From the NCBI RefSeq assembly GCF_032163395.1, contig NZ_CP119968.1, forward strand, positions 1,473,501-1,537,500: a stretch of DNA of 64,000 bases, read 5' to 3'. A model generated the notes under the pieces. It was not told where the DNA came from, did no database searches, and was given only the letters and a program-made list of their open reading frames with translations. Both the position numbers and the translations under genes were made by a program. The DNA comes from Gloeocapsopsis dulcis. Its GTDB lineage: Bacteria > Cyanobacteriota > Cyanobacteriia > Cyanobacteriales > Chroococcidiopsidaceae. Below are positions 24,848 to 32,981 of the stretch, piece by piece; the first letter of the stretch is position 1, and each line of letters opens with the position of its first letter.

Positions 24848-27631
24848 ATGACAGCAACAGCAGAAAAATTGCTGGAACATCATTGGCATAATCTACCACC
24901 ACAAGAGATTGCTCAAAGTTTAGATAGCGATCTTAAAAATGGTTTATCTGCTGCTGAAGTGTCGCAACGACAGCAGAAATACGGTCCAAATGAGTTAAAA
25001 GCCAAGCCAGGGAAAAGCCCGATAGTCAGATTTTTGTTGCAGTTTAATCAACCTCTGCTATATATCTTATTGATTGCAGGCGCGATTAAAGCATTACTCG
25101 GATCGTGGGCAAATGCTTGGGTAATCTGGGGTGTAACTGTCATTAATGCAATTATCGGCTATGTTCAAGAAGCAAAAGCCGAAAGTGCGATCGCTGCGCT
25201 GGCTTCGGTAGTAAAAACTGAAGCTACGGTATTGCATGATGGACAAAAAGTGCGCGTATCTTCAACAGAAATTGTGCCTGGTGACATTGTATTACTCGCT
25301 TCTGGCGATAAAGTCCCTGCAGATTTACGGTTAATTGATGTCCGCAACTTGCAAGTCAACGAATCAGCGCTTACCGGCGAATCAGTTGCTGTAGAAAAGA
25401 CAACACAACAAGTGGATGTTGATGCACCCTTAGCCGAACGTACCAATATGGCGTATGCAGGTAGCTTTGTCACGTTTGGTACAGCTAGAGGAGTTGTGGT
25501 GGCGATCGGTCAAAGTACTGAAACCGGACGCATTTCGCAATTAATTGATCGCGGGACAAACCTCACAACACCTCTGACACGCAAGTTTGATCGCTTCAGC
25601 CGTACGCTGTTGTACATTATTTTGGGTGTTGCGGCGTTAACCTTTGCGGTGGGTATTGGTTACGGGAACTCCTTAGCCGAGATGTTTGAAGCTGCTGTTG
25701 CTTTAGCCGTGAGTGCAATTCCCGAAGGATTACCTGCGGTAGTAACAATCACATTGGCAATTGGTGTTTCGCGGATGGCGCGGCGTCATGCGATCGTTCG
25801 CAAGCTACCTGCGGTAGAAACCCTCGGTGGTGCTACAGTGATCTGTTCTGACAAAACTGGAACACTCACCGAAAACCAAATGACAGTACAGGCAATTTAT
25901 GCCGGAGAGCGGCAATATAAAGTTACGGGTAGTGGGTATAATCCAGAAGGGGAAATTATTGTTGATGCAGACATACCTGATGGTACTGCCGCACAGCAGA
26001 GTGCAGATCTAAACTCAAACGTCGCTTTACATGAATGCTTAATTGCGGGCTTACTCTGTAATGACTCGCGCATAGAAGTCAAAGACGGGCAAAATGCCGT
26101 AATTGGCGATCCCACTGAAGGAGCTTTGATTATTGCCGCAAATAAAGCGGGACTGAGTGACTCTTGCGAAGAAGAAATGCCCAGAGTGGATGTAATTCCC
26201 TTCGAGTCAGAGTTTCAGTACATGGCAACGTTGTATAAGAAGGGCCGAGGAGTCCGAGGCGAGGAGCGAGGGGTTGTTTACGTTAAGGGTTCGGTGGAGG
26301 CACTTCTCAAGCGCTGCGATCAAATGCTGGATGCGCACGGAGAACTCCAGCCTATTGATGTGGAGACAATTCAAGAACAAGTTGATGCGATGGCTCATCA
26401 AGGATTGCGAGTACTAGCGTTTGCTAAAAAAACAGTTGCCGTAGAGCAAAATTCGCTCGATCACGATGATATTGCCGCAGGGTTGATCTTCACGGGATTA
26501 CAAGGCATGATTGATCCGCCGCGTCAAGAAGCAATTGGGGCAGTGCAAGCGTGTCAAGAAGCAGGAATTCAAGTCAAGATGATTACTGGCGATCATGCTG
26601 TCACTGCAAAGGCGATCGCCCAACGGATGGGGTTTAATCGCAACGGAGAGGTGCTTGCATTTACCGGACAACAATTGTTGCAGATGGACGATCGCGAACT
26701 GGCTAACGCGGTAGAAAATGGTGCAGTGTTTGCCCGTGTTGCCCCTGAGCAGAAACTCCGTCTAGTGGAAGCTTTACAATCTAAAGGTGAAGTTGTCGCA
26801 ATGACAGGCGATGGCGTGAATGATGCTCCTGCCTTAAAACAAGCTGATATTGGGATTGCAATGGGCGGTGCAGGAACCGAAGTCGCCAAAGAAGCCTCCG
26901 ACATGATTTTGACAGATGATAACTTCGCCTCGATTGAAGCCGCAGTTGAAGAAGGACGTACAGTTTATCGTAATTTATTGAAAGCGATCGCATTTATTCT
27001 CCCTGTCAATGGTGGCGAATCAATGACGATTTTAATTAGCGTGTTGCTAGCGCGAGTCCTCCCGATCCTCTCATTACAAGTTCTTTGGCTGAATATGGTG
27101 AATTCAATTGCGATGACTGTACCACTTGCTTTTGAACCCAAATCAGAAATTGTGATGCAGCAGGAACCGCGTAACCCAAATGAACCACTCCTTTCCCGCA
27201 GGCTACTGTATCGCATCATCCTGATCTCTGTGTTTAACTGGATTCTGATTTTCGGTATGTTTGAATGGATACTCCGCGATACTGGAAATGTTGCTTTAGC
27301 CCGTACAATGGCAGTTCAATCTCTTGTTTCTGGTAGGATCTTTTATCTGCTGAGTTTGAGTCAACTGGGAACTGCGATCGCTACTCGACTTCGTGGTCAC
27401 AGAAGAGAATCATTCAGCGATGCCCGTGCTATTGCAATTGGAATTATTGGTGCAGTCATTCTCCAAGTTATTTTCAGTCAAGTGAGTTTCATGAATACCT
27501 TATTCGCTACAGCACCACTCAACTGGAATCAATGGCTAATTTGTCTTCTTGTCGGTTTACCAATGATTCCCACTGCGATTATTGCTAATCGTATTGATCC
27601 GATTGAAAAGCCTTCTTCTAGAAAGAGATGA
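24848..27631 (+). CDS. P-type cation ATPase, type II (PacL/PMA-like)
   Basis: A 927-residue pump. An N-terminal cation-ATPase domain (residues 10-75) is followed by the actuator motif TGES (about 176), the membrane motif PEGLPAV, the phosphorylation site SDKTGTLTENQ with Asp335, and the hinge motif TGDGVNDAPALKQADIGIAMG near 655. Ten membrane helices are expected. PEGLP is typical of type II pumps (Ca2+, or Na+/K+ in cyanobacteria); the ion is uncertain. Residues about 465-476 (GRGVRGEERGVV) are encoded by a purine-rich repeat inserted in frame in the nucleotide-binding domain. The gene diverges from the antiporter operon, consistent with shared ion-stress regulation. Confidence 0.92.
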   Translation: MTATAEKLLEHHWHNLPPQEIAQSLDSDLKNGLSAAEVSQRQQKYGPNELKAKPGKSPIVRFLLQFNQPLLYILLIAGAIKALLGSWANAWVIWGVTVINAIIGYVQEAKAESAIAALASVVKTEATVLHDGQKVRVSSTEIVPGDIVLLASGDKVPADLRLIDVRNLQVNESALTGESVAVEKTTQQVDVDAPLAERTNMAYAGSFVTFGTARGVVVAIGQSTETGRISQLIDRGTNLTTPLTRKFDRFSRTLLYIILGVAALTFAVGIGYGNSLAEMFEAAVALAVSAIPEGLPAVVTITLAIGVSRMARRHAIVRKLPAVETLGGATVICSDKTGTLTENQMTVQAIYAGERQYKVTGSGYNPEGEIIVDADIPDGTAAQQSADLNSNVALHECLIAGLLCNDSRIEVKDGQNAVIGDPTEGALIIAANKAGLSDSCEEEMPRVDVIPFESEFQYMATLYKKGRGVRGEERGVVYVKGSVEALLKRCDQMLDAHGELQPIDVETIQEQVDAMAHQGLRVLAFAKKTVAVEQNSLDHDDIAAGLIFTGLQGMIDPPRQEAIGAVQACQEAGIQVKMITGDHAVTAKAIAQRMGFNRNGEVLAFTGQQLLQMDDRELANAVENGAVFARVAPEQKLRLVEALQSKGEVVAMTGDGVNDAPALKQADIGIAMGGAGTEVAKEASDMILTDDNFASIEAAVEEGRTVYRNLLKAIAFILPVNGGESMTILISVLLARVLPILSLQVLWLNMVNSIAMTVPLAFEPKSEIVMQQEPRNPNEPLLSRRLLYRIILISVFNWILIFGMFEWILRDTGNVALARTMAVQSLVSGRIFYLLSLSQLGTAIATRLRGHRRESFSDARAIAIGIIGAVILQVIFSQVSFMNTLFATAPLNWNQWLICLLVGLPMIPTAIIANRIDPIEKPSSRKR
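26241..26273 (+). repeat. In-frame GC-rich repeat in the P-type ATPase gene
   Basis: The segment beginning AGGGCCGAGGAGTCCGAGGC is purine-rich and unlike the surrounding coding DNA. It resembles the repeat at the end of the AI-2E gene (9160). It encodes GRGVRGEERG where relatives usually have a short turn before the VYVKG strand. Confidence 0.45.
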
Positions 27632-27632
27632 A

Positions 27633-27769
27633 GATGCCCTCCGACTAAAGTCGGGGCTACTCAAGCAAAGTGTACCTTCGTACACTAAAACAAGATTTTT
27701 ATGAGTAAGTCCACCTCCGTGGACTTTGTTTATTTAGCAGCGAATTCATTCGCACTCGCATTCATGCAG
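27633..27769 (+). repeat. Multi-hairpin intergenic repeat, copy A
   Basis: Four hairpins follow one another: CCGACT-AA-AGTCGG (27641-27654), GTGTAC-CTTC-GTACAC (27670-27685), GTCCAC-CTCC-GTGGAC (27709-27724) and GCGAAT-TC-ATTCGC (27740-27753), then ACTCGCATTCATGC. The remaining bases to 28020 show no gene. A second copy at 32463 has three of the four stems with compensatory changes. It starts two bases after the ATPase stop and may be transcribed with it. Confidence 0.8.
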
Positions 27770-28020
27770 GAGGTCTATTAGTTAGCATCTCTTTGCTGAG
27801 CTAGAATATCCCAAGATTGATCGACCTCTTGGGCTTAAACATTTTATTGTAACAAGACTTATCTTCTCAAGATGTATTTAAGCTTACTTAAATTTACAGA
27901 AAGAATACCCAAAAGCTCACTACCAATTCTGCAACGCAGCCGATTGCACTCCATCTTCACAAGATTCTCAAGTTTCCTTCCTAAAGTTAACTAAGGAAAT
28001 GAGATGCAGAGGCTATTAAT

Positions 28021-28446
28021 GTGACTGTCAGCTATCAGGAAAAAATCATTGCGCTTTGGACTATTTTTTTGCTGGGTACACTCTTTCATACTCAACTTGG
28101 CTTAATGCCACTATTTCACGGTCAAGATATTGGGTTCGCATATGTTCACAACAACTTCAATATTGCTTATATTCTTTGGGGCATGCTCGGCTTTTTTGTT
28201 TTGCCGATGTATGCGATCGTTGTCATGGTATTCAATGACTCTAAACGTTATCGAGTCATTCATTTAGGTTTAACAATCTTTTATACCGTTTTGAATTTTC
28301 TGCATGTTGTACTTTACTTAGAAGTTACAGCAGTTGTTTGGTATCAAATTGCGTTAATGATCGTTTTATTTTTTATTGGTTTGTTACTTAATTTAGTTTC
28401 ACTGCAATGGCTAAAAGCATACAACCACTATAAAAAAATGGCTTAA
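28021..28446 (+). CDS. Four-helix membrane protein, function unknown
   Basis: A 141-residue hydrophobic protein with a GTG start preceded by AAGGAAATGAGA. Four transmembrane segments are visible at about residues 8-28, 44-66, 78-98 and 104-128, with a conserved-looking HTQLGLMPLFHGQDIGFAYVH between the first two. The two His-containing stretches (LFHTQLG, LNFLHVVLYLE) could bind a metal or heme, but this is speculation. It ends 17 bases before the adenosine-specific kinase gene, so the pair is probably one operon. I do not recognise the family. Confidence 0.7.
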   Translation: MTVSYQEKIIALWTIFLLGTLFHTQLGLMPLFHGQDIGFAYVHNNFNIAYILWGMLGFFVLPMYAIVVMVFNDSKRYRVIHLGLTIFYTVLNFLHVVLYLEVTAVVWYQIALMIVLFFIGLLLNLVSLQWLKAYNHYKKMA

Positions 28447-28463
28447 TAAATAACGAGGTAAAA

Positions 28464-28946
28464 ATGCAACTGCAATCGATTCCAGTTCAAATTCCTGAAG
28501 GAAGTAATGTCATTTTAGGACAATCACACTTCATTAAAACAGTCGAAGACCTTTATGAAATCATGACTGCGAGTTCATCTCATATCAAATTTGGTATTGC
28601 GTTTTGTGAGGCATCGGAACCATGTTTGATTCGTGCTGCTGGTAACGAACAAGCACTACAAGCTGCTGCTATAAACAATGCAAAAGCGATCGCGGCTGGA
28701 CACAGTTTTATTATTGTCATGCAAAATGCATACCCAATTAGTGTTTTGAACATGATTAAGCAATGTCCAGAAGTCTGCAATATTTATTGTGCTACTGCGA
28801 ATTCAGTTGAAGCAATTATCGCTGAAACCGACCAAGGAAGAGGGATTTTAGGTGTTATCGATGGTTCGGCACCAAAAGCTGTCGAAACCGATGAAGATGT
28901 TAAAGTACGCTATCAATTCTTACGTCAAGTAGGCTATAAGCTCTGA
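28464..28946 (+). CDS. Adenosine-specific kinase family protein
   Basis: A 160-residue protein matching the adenosine-specific kinase fold over its whole length: NVILGQSHFIKTVEDLYEIM, FGIAFCEASEPCLIRAAGNE, AAGHSFIIVMQNAYPISVLN and the Gly-rich GRGILGVIDGSAPKAVE near the C-terminus. The family was defined from an archaeal structure with nucleotide bound; its bacterial role is unclear. The ribosome site is ACGAGGTAAAA at 28451. It lies directly behind the four-helix membrane protein. Confidence 0.88.
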   Translation: MQLQSIPVQIPEGSNVILGQSHFIKTVEDLYEIMTASSSHIKFGIAFCEASEPCLIRAAGNEQALQAAAINNAKAIAAGHSFIIVMQNAYPISVLNMIKQCPEVCNIYCATANSVEAIIAETDQGRGILGVIDGSAPKAVETDEDVKVRYQFLRQVGYKL

Positions 28947-28990
28947 TTCTATAACATGGGGCACAAAATATGAGGTAGTTATAGATGAGC

Positions 28991-29807
28991 CTATCCCACT
29001 AACTTCGGAAACCAGATGTAGGATGTAGCGAGGAGGAGGAAAGCATCAAAACAGACTTTCAGGCGTTCCCATCGAACAACGAGCCGTCTATACTTGCGTT
29101 GAAACCAGGAGAAAGAGCGCTCCTGCTGATAGCGAGGCACAATTACCTTGATTGGTCTGCCCTTGGGCTTTTTGCCTCTGATTTGCCGTTTTTTGATTTG
29201 CGGTCGAATACCCTGAGTACGGAGTTTCTTACGCAACCATATGGCATCGTAACCTTTGTCAGCAGCAAGAGTTTTAGGGCGACGCTTAGGATTACCCCGT
29301 TTACCTGTCGCCAATCGGATTTGAGCTAGCATTGGCAGGACTTGCTGCCTCTCATCACCGTTAGCAGGAGTAGTAATGGTTACTACTGGCATACCGTTGG
29401 CATCTGTAATACTGTGAATTAGTACACCTTTGCCTTTGTAGCCATAAGCTACACCTTCACCGCCACCTTTCCCAGGGGGAAAAAGAGCCATCAACGGCCC
29501 CGTACTTCCAGTCGATTATTCCTTTTTCCTCTGCCACTGCCAAAATCCGCCTTTTTAGTTGTTCCAGCGTTCCGTCTTCATACCATCGCTTGAGCCATCG
29601 GTGGGCTGAACTTTTTGCTGCCCATTGCTCCCCTCGTGGTATGTCGCACCATCGGCAACCAGTAATCAGCACCTATAGTTGGGTATTCAATACCTTACGG
29701 AACGGCGTGTGTGGCATTCCACGCCCTCTTTTCTCTGGAGATTGAGGTAGTAAGTCTTCAAACAATTTCCATTCGAGATCGCTCAATCCCTCAAACCTAC
29801 CTACCAT
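28991..29807 (-). pseudogene. IS5-family transposase with internal stop and frameshift
   Basis: The frame opens at ATG 29807 (MVGRFEGLSDLEWKLFEDLL), then meets TAG at 29673-29675 inside NTQL*VLITGCRWCDIPRG, where relatives have Tyr. It continues to YGAVDGSFSP (catalytic Asp) and changes frame at a T5C5 run near 29490. The second frame reads PPGKGGGEGVAYGYKGKGV, TLAADKGYDAIWLRKKL (second Asp) and RYQQERSFSWFQRKYRRLVVRWE (catalytic Glu region). The T5C5 shift could be the programmed orfA/orfB shift of this group, but the stop codon probably inactivates the gene. Confidence 0.88.
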
Positions 29808-29872
29808 TTTGTCTTTTTTTGTTCTATTTCAGCTTTATGCTGATTCTAGCTCATCTTTTTATATTAGTGGGA
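28994..29872 (-). mobile_element. IS5-family element, decayed, with TA target duplication
   Basis: An 879-bp element bounded by TCCCACTAA (28994) and TTAGTGGGA (ending 29872), with TA directly repeated on both sides. It sits between the adenosine-specific kinase and SDR genes without interrupting either. Confidence 0.8.
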
Positions 29873-29919
29873 TAAGTTCATGATACACTTTGAAGTTATG
29901 ACAGCAGACATAGTAAATA

Positions 29920-30699
29920 CTACAACCCACCTCTCGAACGCATAATTTGTCCAGTAATCCACTGTGCTTGCGCAGAAACAAGAAATAAAATAATCCGCGC
30001 CGCGTCTTCTGGAGTACCAACATGACCAAAAGGCGATCGCATTGCAAGTTGAGTACGGAATTCTGCACTCATCCAACCAGTATCTGTTGCACCAGGATCT
30101 ACCGCATTGACTGTAATACCTTTATCCGCCAAGCTAGCACTTAAACTAATAGTCAGTGCTTCAATTGCTCCTTTAGTAATTGCATAGGGGAGATTCTCTG
30201 GCATTGGTGCCAAACTCTGACCCGAAGTTAGATTAATAATTCTTCCCCCTGGGCGTCCATCGTGGCGATGCGCAAATTCTTGACACAGTAGTGTAGTTCC
30301 CCGCACATTAACTGCATAGTGCGTATCAAGCAAATCAGCAGATAACGAGTAGATATCCACTTGTTCGTCATACGCTGCATTATTCACCAAAATATCCACT
30401 GAACCCAGCGAATTCTCTACTCGATCAAATAGTTGTTTTGGTACTTGTGATTCAGCAAGATTCGCCTCAAAACCAGCAGCTTTTACTCCATAAGATTGCA
30501 GTAAACTAATAATTTCTTCTGCCTCATTATGATGACTTCCCCAAGGCATTAACGCATCATAAGGACGATAATAAGTCGTAAAAACATTTGCCCCAGCTTC
30601 AGCTAAAGCACGAGCGATCGCAAACCCAATTCCCTGAGTTCGACTCACCCCCGTCACTAAAGCAACCTTACCAGATAAACCGTAATCTTTGTAGATCAT
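29920..30699 (-). CDS. SDR-family oxidoreductase
   Basis: A 259-residue classical short-chain dehydrogenase. The NAD(P)-binding motif VTGVSRTQGIGFAIA (an SRTQGIG variant of TGxxxGIG), the NNAA motif (DILVNNAAYD), catalytic Ser in INLTSGQS and Tyr-Lys in YAITKGA (PYAITKGAIEAL) are all present, as is the C-terminal WITGQIMRSRGG. These proteins reduce or oxidise carbonyl or hydroxyl groups; the substrate is unknown. The gene starts six bases after the stop of the acetyltransferase gene, so they form one transcript. Confidence 0.9.
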   Translation of the reverse strand: MIYKDYGLSGKVALVTGVSRTQGIGFAIARALAEAGANVFTTYYRPYDALMPWGSHHNEAEEIISLLQSYGVKAAGFEANLAESQVPKQLFDRVENSLGSVDILVNNAAYDEQVDIYSLSADLLDTHYAVNVRGTTLLCQEFAHRHDGRPGGRIINLTSGQSLAPMPENLPYAITKGAIEALTISLSASLADKGITVNAVDPGATDTGWMSAEFRTQLAMRSPFGHVGTPEDAARIILFLVSAQAQWITGQIMRSRGGL

Positions 30700-30705
30700 T
30701 TTTAA

Positions 30706-31869
30706 TCAAAAGAAATCCGACATCCAAGGTGAAGAACCTGCAAAAATCTGCGTTGCGCTTAATAAAGCTGTTTCTGTAGCTTCTAAATGTCCTACAAGTT
30801 GCAGTTGTTGTGGTGTAAATAGTCCGGTATACAGTGGCGATAATCCACTAACATTTAGTTTTAATTCTCCCCTTCCTCCCCTAGTGATTTCACCACGTCC
30901 TTGCGCTACTTTTAAAGTAAATTTATCATTATTTTCTACTATCAAACTATCGCGAACTTCTAAATGTAATTCAGTCACTAATTCTTGTGGATAACCGCGG
31001 TTTTTCAAAGCTGCGATTACATCAACAATTCGCACCATCCAACGTCCTAAATCTACTATTTTAGCAGTCTGTTCTGGCAGCATTAATGTAAAAAAAACAT
31101 TCAGTGAATGTTTCCACCTGACTTTTTCAATTTGCGAACGATGATCGCCAATAAATGTCCAAAAACGCCGCACTGCGCCTGGAGTTAGTAATACCAAATC
31201 TCTCACAACAATACAATCACTATCTTTCACCTTCTGTTGTTTAAACATTAAATAACCTTCCGGTTGATCTTCACCAATCAGATAAGCATAAGTAGATGAT
31301 TCAACTATCTCTTGCCAAATCACTTGATGACGTTGCAAATATCCATTTGTTAATTTTGCTTGCTGCTGATAAAGATTGTGCAACTGATGATGATCGAGAT
31401 TTACAGCTTGCATTGGGAGTGTGCGATCGCGCATCATAATACTCTGAGTCGGCATTTCCCAACTGCAAAGACTTCCTCCTTGTTCGTATCCTGCTTGGCG
31501 ATACAATCGTTGCGTTGCAGCGTATAGCGTAGAAAGTGGTATACCCCGTCTATAGAGTTCTCGAATCGTTTGTCGCATTAATTCCAATGCTGCACCGGAA
31601 CCGCGATATTCTGGTGCTATACCCACCGCTGCAATTCCTCCCATCGGGATACACTTACCACCAAACCACTGTCCTTGCGGAATAATCGCTAAACCGCCGA
31701 TCATTTGATTTGAATCGTGGATGCTGCGGAAGTTTTCTCTACCAATACGTTGAAAGTAAGTCTGGATGCTTTCGTCGGGTGGAGAGTTGAAGCACTGCTG
31801 TAAGATTTTTCCTAATCGTTTCTCGTCTTCAGCGTTAGAGATCGTGTTGTATTCAAACTGAGACGTCAT
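30706..31869 (-). CDS. Eis-like GNAT N-acetyltransferase with C-terminal SCP2 domain
   Basis: A 387-residue protein. Residues 1-150 are a GNAT domain with the acetyl-CoA loop GIAPEYRGSGAALELM (R/Q-x-x-G-x-G/A pattern) and IPLSTLYAATQRLYRQAGYEQ. A second GNAT-like domain spans 150-285. Residues 290-387 are an SCP2-like sterol-carrier fold ending in SPWMSDFF, the free C-terminal carboxylate that acts as general base in Eis proteins. Mycobacterial Eis acetylates aminoglycosides and protein amines; the role here is unknown. It is first in a two-gene operon with the SDR. Confidence 0.88.
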   Translation of the reverse strand: MTSQFEYNTISNAEDEKRLGKILQQCFNSPPDESIQTYFQRIGRENFRSIHDSNQMIGGLAIIPQGQWFGGKCIPMGGIAAVGIAPEYRGSGAALELMRQTIRELYRRGIPLSTLYAATQRLYRQAGYEQGGSLCSWEMPTQSIMMRDRTLPMQAVNLDHHQLHNLYQQQAKLTNGYLQRHQVIWQEIVESSTYAYLIGEDQPEGYLMFKQQKVKDSDCIVVRDLVLLTPGAVRRFWTFIGDHRSQIEKVRWKHSLNVFFTLMLPEQTAKIVDLGRWMVRIVDVIAALKNRGYPQELVTELHLEVRDSLIVENNDKFTLKVAQGRGEITRGGRGELKLNVSGLSPLYTGLFTPQQLQLVGHLEATETALLSATQIFAGSSPWMSDFF

Positions 31870-31911
31870 AGCGATTGCACTTGTTATACTACAAATATAA
31901 ATATATCTGTA

Positions 31912-32427
31912 TTATGAATGCGAGACAAGCGATCGCGCTTGATTAATCCATCCTTGTATTTCACTTCGAGAAGGACACAAATCGCGGCGTTGGAATGTTG
32001 CAACTTGCAATCGCAAAATCTGTTGATGCAACCGATGCAGTGGAGTTTGCGCGAGTTGTGCAACTGATATAATTCCTGTGTGCAGTAATACCCCACAATA
32101 TTGACAGCCTACACTGGGAATCCGCGCTAAATCTGCTAAAGCCACCCATTTGTTGACATTTTCAACTCTGACTCGTAACCGCGTTGCTAAGGCTTGTTTT
32201 TGAGTGGTAGTCCGACATTGTTGTAGCAGTTGCAGTGTTGTAGAGATACCAAGTTGGGCAAGTTGGGCTTGTTCTTGGGAGTTTAATCCTGGTAATTCAC
32301 CGATTTGCCAATTTTTAGAAAGAATTTTAGTTTGAGGAGAACGGTCTAAGTTTTGCATATTTTGGGAGTAATACCATCTTACTTTATTATTCCATCTCAG
32401 CAGATTGACAATTTTTGGTGTTGCCAA
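31912..32427 (-). CDS. DUF4332 (helix-hairpin-helix) protein
   Basis: Up to 171 residues. The body matches DUF4332: WQIGELPGLNSQEQAQLAQLGISTTLQLLQQ, then WVALADLARIPSVGCQYCGVLLHTGIISVAQLAQ. This consists of two tandem helix-hairpin-helix units of the type that bind DNA or act as scaffolds. The first 23 residues are not family-like, so translation may begin at Met24 (position 32358, MQNLDRS); neither start has a clear ribosome site. It is monocistronic, just upstream of the acetyltransferase pair and separated from it by 42 bases. Confidence 0.82.
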   Translation of the reverse strand: MATPKIVNLLRWNNKVRWYYSQNMQNLDRSPQTKILSKNWQIGELPGLNSQEQAQLAQLGISTTLQLLQQCRTTTQKQALATRLRVRVENVNKWVALADLARIPSVGCQYCGVLLHTGIISVAQLAQTPLHRLHQQILRLQVATFQRRDLCPSRSEIQGWINQARSLVSHS

Positions 32428-32981
32428 AGCTAGTTCTAGAGAATATATCAGCGTCAGCGTAGAAAGATGCCCTTCAACTGAAGTTGGGGGCTACTTAAAT
32501 AAAGTGTGCCGCCGCACACTCAAAAGTTTGCATTTTGTTTATCTGGTAGCGAATTTGTTCGCACTCGCATTCATGCTTAGCTGATGCACTGCGCAATTCT
32601 TAATTTATATTGCAAATTGTTACAGTGTTGTGATACGCTTACAGCACATATAAGGACTTTTGTTATTGTTCACCAGTAAGCGGGTTCAGATAATGTTGCA
32701 GGTATCAATCTCATCGGTAGCTTCAAATAGTTGGGATTGTCCACCTTAATGTGGGGTTTGAGCTTTGTAACGATGCAAAATATTTAAAGCTAGCGATCAG
32801 AAAGCTAAGCTGACTAGCTTCAACTCTACGCGATCGCGTCCAACGAGTAGATATCCTTCTAAATATTACCTGAGTCATTTGCCAGGAGATATTGTTCGAT
32901 GCAAAGTGTGGTGTCTTCTCGCGATCTACGTGAAGTTATTGTTTGATTTCATCAACTTTTAATCACCTCACTTGTTGACAG
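32428..32981. other. Intergenic region upstream of the SulP operon
   Basis: About 550 bases between divergent genes. The left part holds hairpin-repeat copy B. The right part (about 32600-32980) must hold the SulP operon promoter; I find no recognisable riboswitch or operator. Confidence 0.6.
32463..32577 (+). repeat. Multi-hairpin intergenic repeat, copy B
   Basis: Three hairpins in the same order as copy A: CAACT-GA-AGTTG (32475-32486), GTGTGC-CGCC-GCACAC (32504-32519) and GCGAA-TTTG-TTCGC (32549-32562), then the same ACTCGCATTCATGC. Copy A's third hairpin is absent. Stem bases differ from copy A in paired fashion (G-C to A-T in stem 1, A-T to G-C in stem 2). Confidence 0.8.

Follow-up and report, generated by a model that had tools for sequence, protein, structure and literature searches.

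What keeps a hairpin paired while its sequence drifts? The question is raised by two copies, A and B, of a multi-hairpin repeat in a 64-kb stretch (the window) of the genome of the cyanobacterium Gloeocapsopsis dulcis (G000; 5.62 Mb, 3 contigs). Two-sided base-pair changes are commonly taken as the strongest evidence of functional RNA, and an earlier note on this DNA had concluded from such changes that covariation here implies selection on a folded molecule. That step is unsafe, because the loops of the repeat invert in place between orthologous copies and its stems diverge nearly as fast as the flanks. A and B are worn representatives of a dispersed, four-hairpin cyanobacterial element, one form of which is a non-autonomous, IS5-type miniature inverted-repeat transposable element (MITE). 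We consider it likely that the repeats are a decayed IS5-type MITE family whose hairpin pairing is kept mainly by template switching during replication.

Both copies exist, within 1–2 nt of where they had been placed, and are laid out as follows.

27632–27776, + strand: copy A, a four-hairpin core (27632–27753) with an intact right terminal inverted repeat; the left terminal repeat is absent
27639–27656, + strand: copy A hairpin 1 (outer), CTCCGAC-TAAA-GTCGGGG
27669–27686, + strand: copy A hairpin 2 (inner), AGTGTAC-CTTC-GTACACT
27707–27726, + strand: copy A hairpin 3 (inner), AAGTCCAC-CTCC-GTGGACTT, then TGTTTATTTA; terminator-like
27740–27753, + strand: copy A hairpin 4 (outer), GCGAA-TTCA-TTCGC
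27759–27776, + strand: copy A right terminal inverted repeat, CATTCATGCAGGAGGTCT
32465–32576, + strand: copy B, worn, with its core at 32465–32562; most of hairpin 3 and the two outer ends are missing
32472–32490, + strand: copy B hairpin 1 (outer)
32503–32520, + strand: copy B hairpin 2 (inner), AGTGTGC-CGCC-GCACACT
32549–32562, + strand: copy B hairpin 4 (outer), GCGAA-TTTG-TTCGC
32563–32576, + strand: copy B 3' motif ACTCGCATTCATGC, consisting of a linker and the inner portion of the right terminal repeat

The hairpin order and the 3' motif described for the pair were found in both copies (in A, ACTCGCATTCATGC lies at 27754–27767), as were the two paired changes: in stem 1 a G-C pair of A corresponds to A-T in B, and in stem 2 an A-T pair of A to G-C in B. 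The additional hairpin credited to A (27707–27726) indeed has no counterpart in B. This hairpin 3 is present with at least 6 of 8 pairs in 173 of the 202 copies collected below, and B is an exception because the stretch holding its left arm is missing. The folding of A was better than that of 200 out of 200 shuffles (z = –4.37). B was not outstanding on the + strand (z = –1.48, 11 of 200 shuffles as good) and somewhat outstanding on the – strand (z = –2.83, 1 of 200 as good). Taken alone, the two compensatory pairs that separate A from B are weak evidence.

A covariance model, R1, was built from 29 copies of the G. dulcis genome. Within the window it matched only A and B at E ≤ 0.001, and Rfam gave no match at gathering score anywhere in these 64 kb. 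At the same E threshold, the fetched sequence sources yielded 202 non-overlapping copies, 95 of them in G. dulcis and 44 and 63 in two congeners (G001 and G002, respectively); some listed matches lie outside that set. A search of the G. dulcis genome with copy A gave 56 rows at about 40 places, chromosome-wide (40 of 124 first-look candidates scored), and R1, with 150 of 2019 candidates scored, gave at least 141 matches at E ≤ 1, many of which represent one site matched on both strands, given the near symmetry of the element. R1 matches at E ≤ 0.01 occurred in 20 of 40 genomes, G. dulcis included (at most 89 matches listed per genome), and, at E ≤ 1e-4 with stricter filters, in 29 of 194 genomes of the phylum, G. 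dulcis and G001 included. In 18 loci from named relatives with a homologue of a neighbouring protein there were 4 matches in 2 loci; by that protein, the closest named relative is Gloeocapsopsis crepidinum LEGE 06123 (82%). Copies at three loci (L013, L017 and L033) have an extra hairpin of the GGTAAGGCATGCCTTACC type in the spacer. In another cyanobacterium, a stretch near locus L359 (G095:C1:4144244-4145191) holds at least five copies of the repeat in one orientation, mostly about 165 bp apart.

Covariation, weak from two copies, proved strong across the family. Among the 29 G. dulcis copies, 6 pairs showed two-sided change versus 2.8 after shuffling (13 of 500 shuffles reached 6), with a covariation score of 0.130 versus 0.104 (reached by none of the 500). 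Among the 202 copies, two-sided change was seen at 25 of 27 pairs (shuffled mean 16.4, maximum 22) and in 260 cells (shuffled mean 62, maximum 80; 300 shuffles), and 91.3% of cells were paired versus 85.8% after shuffling; all these shuffles overstate significance, because the copies share descent. The covariance-model search called for by the earlier note thus turned up further copies, with compensatory changes, in the G. dulcis genome and in relatives. Neither of the outcomes named beforehand as speaking against the note's claim (copies without compensatory changes, or no copies in relatives) occurred.

The origin of these changes can be approached through orthologous copies. Our partial sample comprised 28 pairs in which both flanks matched; one (L046/L311) was left out of the counts, leaving 27 comparisons, namely 15 G001–G002 pairs and 12 pairs with G. 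dulcis, some loci being used in more than one pair. In the 15 G001–G002 pairs, 7 of 29 inner 4-nt loops were exact reverse complements of each other, each differing at all four positions, and these seven fell in 5 of the pairs. Three further inner loops were flipped with one extra difference, and one outer loop showed an exact inversion, but of a kind that involves just two differences. In the flanks of the same pairs, which served as a control, none of 19,190 four-base windows was inverted, while 59 differed at three or more positions. All stem pairs were standard in both orthologs for 6 of the 7 exact inversions. In the uncounted pair, the two genomes carry the entire element at the same site but in opposite orientations (L046 517–660 in G. 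dulcis, L311 756–878 in G001), by in-place inversion or two separate insertions.

In-place inversion of loops is what hairpin-templated strand switching produces, and we conclude that such switching is active here. During replication the polymerase would switch template within the palindrome and copy one arm onto the other, giving rise to changes that look compensatory; the same switch would reverse-complement the loop, and the same events would produce most of the two-sided stem changes. According to two papers, switching between inverted-repeat arms homogenises the arms and inverts the spacer (PMC8604942), and template switching has been argued to maintain RNA stems (PMC8794818). The repeat resembles the short inverted repeats treated there in its loop inversion and arm homogenisation; it differs in that the setting is a dispersed family of bacterial repeats, with repeated instances between orthologous copies. 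Hairpin-templated switching can account for the covariation, and selection may add to it. The link from switching to covariation rests mainly on the loops, because clean two-sided changes between orthologs are few.

The mobile nature of the element is read from its ends. Complete copies in the congeners carry AGACCTCCTGCATGAATC on the left and its inverse on the right, and are bordered by a repeated triplet (ATT, AAT, ATA, ACT, AGT, TTT or TAT). Such complete elements measure about 160–163 bp, with terminal inverted repeats of about 18 bp, and have no transposase gene of their own. When outer ends were scored as present at 5 mismatches or fewer, 32 of the 202 copies had both (3 of these 32 in G. 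dulcis), 58 had one and 112 had neither, and for this reason we claim MITE membership for the two-ended form. The left end was found in 64 copies, versus a mean of 0.0 for 20 scrambled versions. Identical 3-bp flanks bordered 25 of the 32 two-ended copies (permutation mean 7.5, maximum 15 in 5000). Across the G. dulcis genome, the end pattern occurred 12 times forward and 17 times in reverse, versus 1 and 1 for the same pattern read backwards; this backwards control had 0 matches in five relatives.

Ends of the AGACCTCCTGCATGAAT type are found on both the repeat and an IS5-family element of the same genome. In G. dulcis the latter is a 947-bp insertion sequence (IS; G000:C1:1286443-1287389) that shares these ends save for a mismatch at the outermost base and has AAT/AAT flanks. 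The right end of copy A is identical to that of this IS at 18 of 18 bases and is directly followed by ATT (27777–27779), a typical target triplet of the family. The IS encodes HTH_Tnp_4 and DDE_Tnp_4/DDE_Tnp_1 domains in separate frames; the best NCBIfam model was IS5_4, with each of the two frames below the whole-protein cut-off. An ANT target is typical of the ISL2 subgroup. In the scheme that we propose, an IS5-type transposase would move the AGACCTCC-ended element in trans. The suggestion of a transposase substrate was right in substance, the signature being a terminal inverted repeat plus a 3-bp duplication and not the hairpins. Like MITEs of IS5-family elements, the repeat shares its ends with an IS of the same genome, makes a short duplication, lacks a transposase, has many copies and has an empty site in relatives. 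It is distinguished from them by its interior, a quasi-symmetric array of four hairpins, and in that most of its copies lack one or both ends.

An empty site could be recognised for the L212 insertion of G002: in G001 and G. dulcis the site is clean, with flank matches that overlap by 5 and 3 bases, respectively. In two other relatives, 19 bp (G014) and 190 bp (G010) of other DNA lie between the flank matches, and R1 found no copy at this site in any of the four genomes. At two L211 sites the flanks were not contiguous in relatives. For L020, an end-less copy, the left flank match extended no further than the element in any of the 5 relatives; the right flank lay at a distance of over 1 kb in two of them (G001 and G014), at another place in G002, and was not listed for G010 and G004. 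At neither A nor B was a two-ended insertion with a clean duplication found, as neither keeps both ends. The core of copy A begins directly 3' of the stop codon of a P-type ATPase gene (24848–27631). Five of five relatives have 840–861 bp at this site instead, with no R1 match and with an ABC transporter gene on the opposite strand (recognised as ABC_tran by Pfam in G002 and by reading in the remaining four). At 27632–27950 of the window that gene is missing and copy A sits at the junction. Probably, copy A came in and an adjoining deletion removed its left end together with the ABC transporter gene. Copy B is absent from G010, the sole relative that keeps both flanks; at its site G010 has 5 bases between the flank matches, and G. 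dulcis carries extra bases beside the repeat. Between the two copies lies a further IS-like element (28985–29881), with 18-nt inverted ends that are 89% complementary and an open reading frame (ORF) with a DDE_Tnp_1 domain (28991–29494, – strand).

Several observations weigh against a mobile family maintained by template switching. The transposase was split over frames in both G. dulcis IS copies whose frames were listed, transposition itself was not observed, and outer ends are not recognisable in most copies. The end-less copies may be products of decay or belong to a separate form: 35 of the 202 copies stop sharply at CAAGCT after hairpin 4, those examined by reading have no IS5-type right end, and the mobiliser of this form was not found. 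Two copies from other cyanobacteria (L358 and L359) look closer to this form and, by reading, have GTAG or ATAG inside their outer hairpins. As to the switching, the exact loop inversion in hairpin 3 of L231/L227 comes with imperfect stems. Clean two-sided change was seen in just 6 cells of the 27 ortholog comparisons (9 further cells were two-sided but without pairing on one side), and a single one of these belongs to the G001–G002 set (L303/L351), in a hairpin with an inverted loop. Finally, stem mismatches in the family as a whole are G-T more often than A-C (161 versus 85 in 137 copies, one pair with T-G as the norm being omitted). This excess is what RNA selection predicts, and model bias plus shared descent can also yield one.

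Could the hairpins instead act in the transcript, as terminators or 3'-end stabilisers, the covariation reflecting selection for pairing? We regard such a structured RNA as a possible but doubtful explanation. It would suit the G-T excess, a covariation far above shuffles and the terminator-like layout of hairpin plus T-tract: this layout occurs on the + strand of 141, the – strand of 90 and both strands of 64 of the 202 copies, versus shuffled expectations of 13.0, 9.8 and 0.6, respectively, and 21 of 403 flank windows. Copies also lie close to gene ends. With neighbourhoods called by a simple ORF heuristic, without gene models, 176 copies could be classified as lying between convergent (71), tandem (84) or divergent (21) genes, 26 remaining unclassified, and neighbouring gene 3' ends at ≤30 bp made up 143 of 226, versus 117.6 expected if placement were uniform (400 simulations, maximum 131). 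This bias, however, exceeded the simulation in the end-less copies only (83 versus 67.8, maximum 77) and stayed within it for the presumably younger two-ended copies (26 classifiable; 16 versus 12.0, maximum 17) and the one-ended ones (44 versus 37.5, maximum 45), so that purging may explain it. Between G001 and G002, stems diverge nearly as fast (5.6%, 45 of 807 sites) as the near flanks (7.2%) or all flanks (6.2%), and, while linker 1 shows 5.0% and the spacer 13.6%, the T-rich linker 2 reaches 12.4% (23 of 186 sites). That linker 2 diverges faster, and that copies retaining ends show no clear 3' bias, argues against strong selection for a terminator role. One-sided transitions between orthologs left G-T about as often as A-C (15 versus 11 in the G001–G002 pairs, 15 versus 13 in the 12 G. 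dulcis pairs). As regards strand-specific RNA selection, the G-T to A-C ratio is thus about equal in orthologs but unequal family-wide. In the window, copy A scored as terminator-like (1 found versus 0.5 expected from shuffles of a 700-bp region) and copy B did not. The suggestion of a small RNA found no support, since copies between tandem genes occur in both orientations (37 and 47 of 84) and Rfam had no match in the window.

Ectopic gene conversion among copies could swap whole hairpins and thereby mimic both loop inversion and two-sided stem change. Potential donors exist, because both orientations of the hairpin-3 loop occur family-wide (GGAG in 74 and CTCC in 34 of the 202 copies). Nevertheless, conversion is quite improbable as the source. 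The hairpin-2 loop GAAG is present in 3 of 202 copies, and yet two of its carriers (L227 and L344) have CTTC in the orthologous copy (L231 and L037, respectively), a pattern more in line with in-place inversion than with conversion by a different copy; in L250/L229, moreover, both inner loops are inverted while 1 of 27 stem pairs differs. It also seems unlikely, albeit less so, that the core consists of two GTAG-type repetitive extragenic palindromes (REPs) joined tail to tail, i.e., a REPIN, moved by a REP-associated (RAYT, Y1) transposase, with the IS5-type ends being secondary. The other strand of the left hairpin does read as GTAG plus a palindrome (GTAGCCCCGACTTCAGTCGG), and the sharp CAAGCT end of 35 copies would suit such a unit. 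GTAG families exist in cyanobacteria, and many Anabaena variabilis GTAG-15 dimers sit within long palindromic sequences (PMC3733652). The likeness to GTAG-12, -15 and -16 lies in hairpins with an inward GTAG-like tag and in dimers inside longer palindromes, whereas the present repeat has two extra inner hairpins, IS5-type ends, a degenerate right tag and no strong RAYT link. In the commonest linker strings, the left tags are mostly GTAG and ATAG, but the right ones are mostly TTAG, ATAG or CTAG. In the 30 loci examined (of 94 Y1_Tnp matches in 20 genomes), no strong R1 match stood beside a Y1_Tnp gene, and a RAYT association was not found. Three weak matches (22–23 bits, E 0.0075–0.014) fell in two loci, both in members of the order that belong to other families, and there were none in five Y1_Tnp loci of the own genus, which cover 2 of the 5 matches in G. 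dulcis. R1, being built on this genus, may miss distant forms near such genes. Furthermore, G010 is rich in copies although its sole Y1_Tnp match is a fragment.

Irrespective of how the family arose, survivors often lie just 3' of stop codons, where a hairpin and T-tract on both strands could serve as a weak bidirectional terminator or 3'-end stabiliser, or be merely tolerated. Judged from position and layout, a role in ending or stabilising transcripts may fit. A cyanobacterial 3'-end study (PMC13289151) attributes a minority of operon ends to canonical terminators, states that Rho is missing from cyanobacteria, and reports REP-like stabilising structures to be mostly absent from the species studied; this makes a terminator role worth testing. 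One might go further and suppose, speculatively, that mobile cassettes acting as bidirectional terminators form a class found throughout the cyanobacteria, their stems being rewritten and flipped by template switching. In such a cassette a T-rich linker would lie on the outer side of each of the two inner hairpins, and the symmetric element, once inserted between genes in a phylum that lacks Rho, would end transcription from both sides, with pairing persisting while the sequence is free to change. A locus in another genome (L277 650–1350, G024; R1 E 0.008–0.014) has, by eye, three tandem-like units near a Y1_Tnp gene, with the four-hairpin layout, similar linkers and different stems, and would then belong to the same class. 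If this were true, the textbook covariation seen here would be largely a mutational product.

No description of this repeat family appeared in the literature listings searched, with Elhai et al. 2008, on small mobile repeats in cyanobacteria, and the GTAG REP consensus figures outside the comparison. Each ingredient is already known, and the family is a new member among such elements. It pairs strong covariation with direct signs of a DNA-copying process able to create covariation. Its main use is as a natural test case for covariation that arises without an RNA function, and it could also serve as a warning to RNA discovery based on covariation. The many small natural test sites (202 copies, 28 ortholog pairs) could be used to measure how often bacterial hairpins flip and re-match. 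And if the terminator-like layout works, mobile DNA could supply transcript ends in bacteria without Rho.

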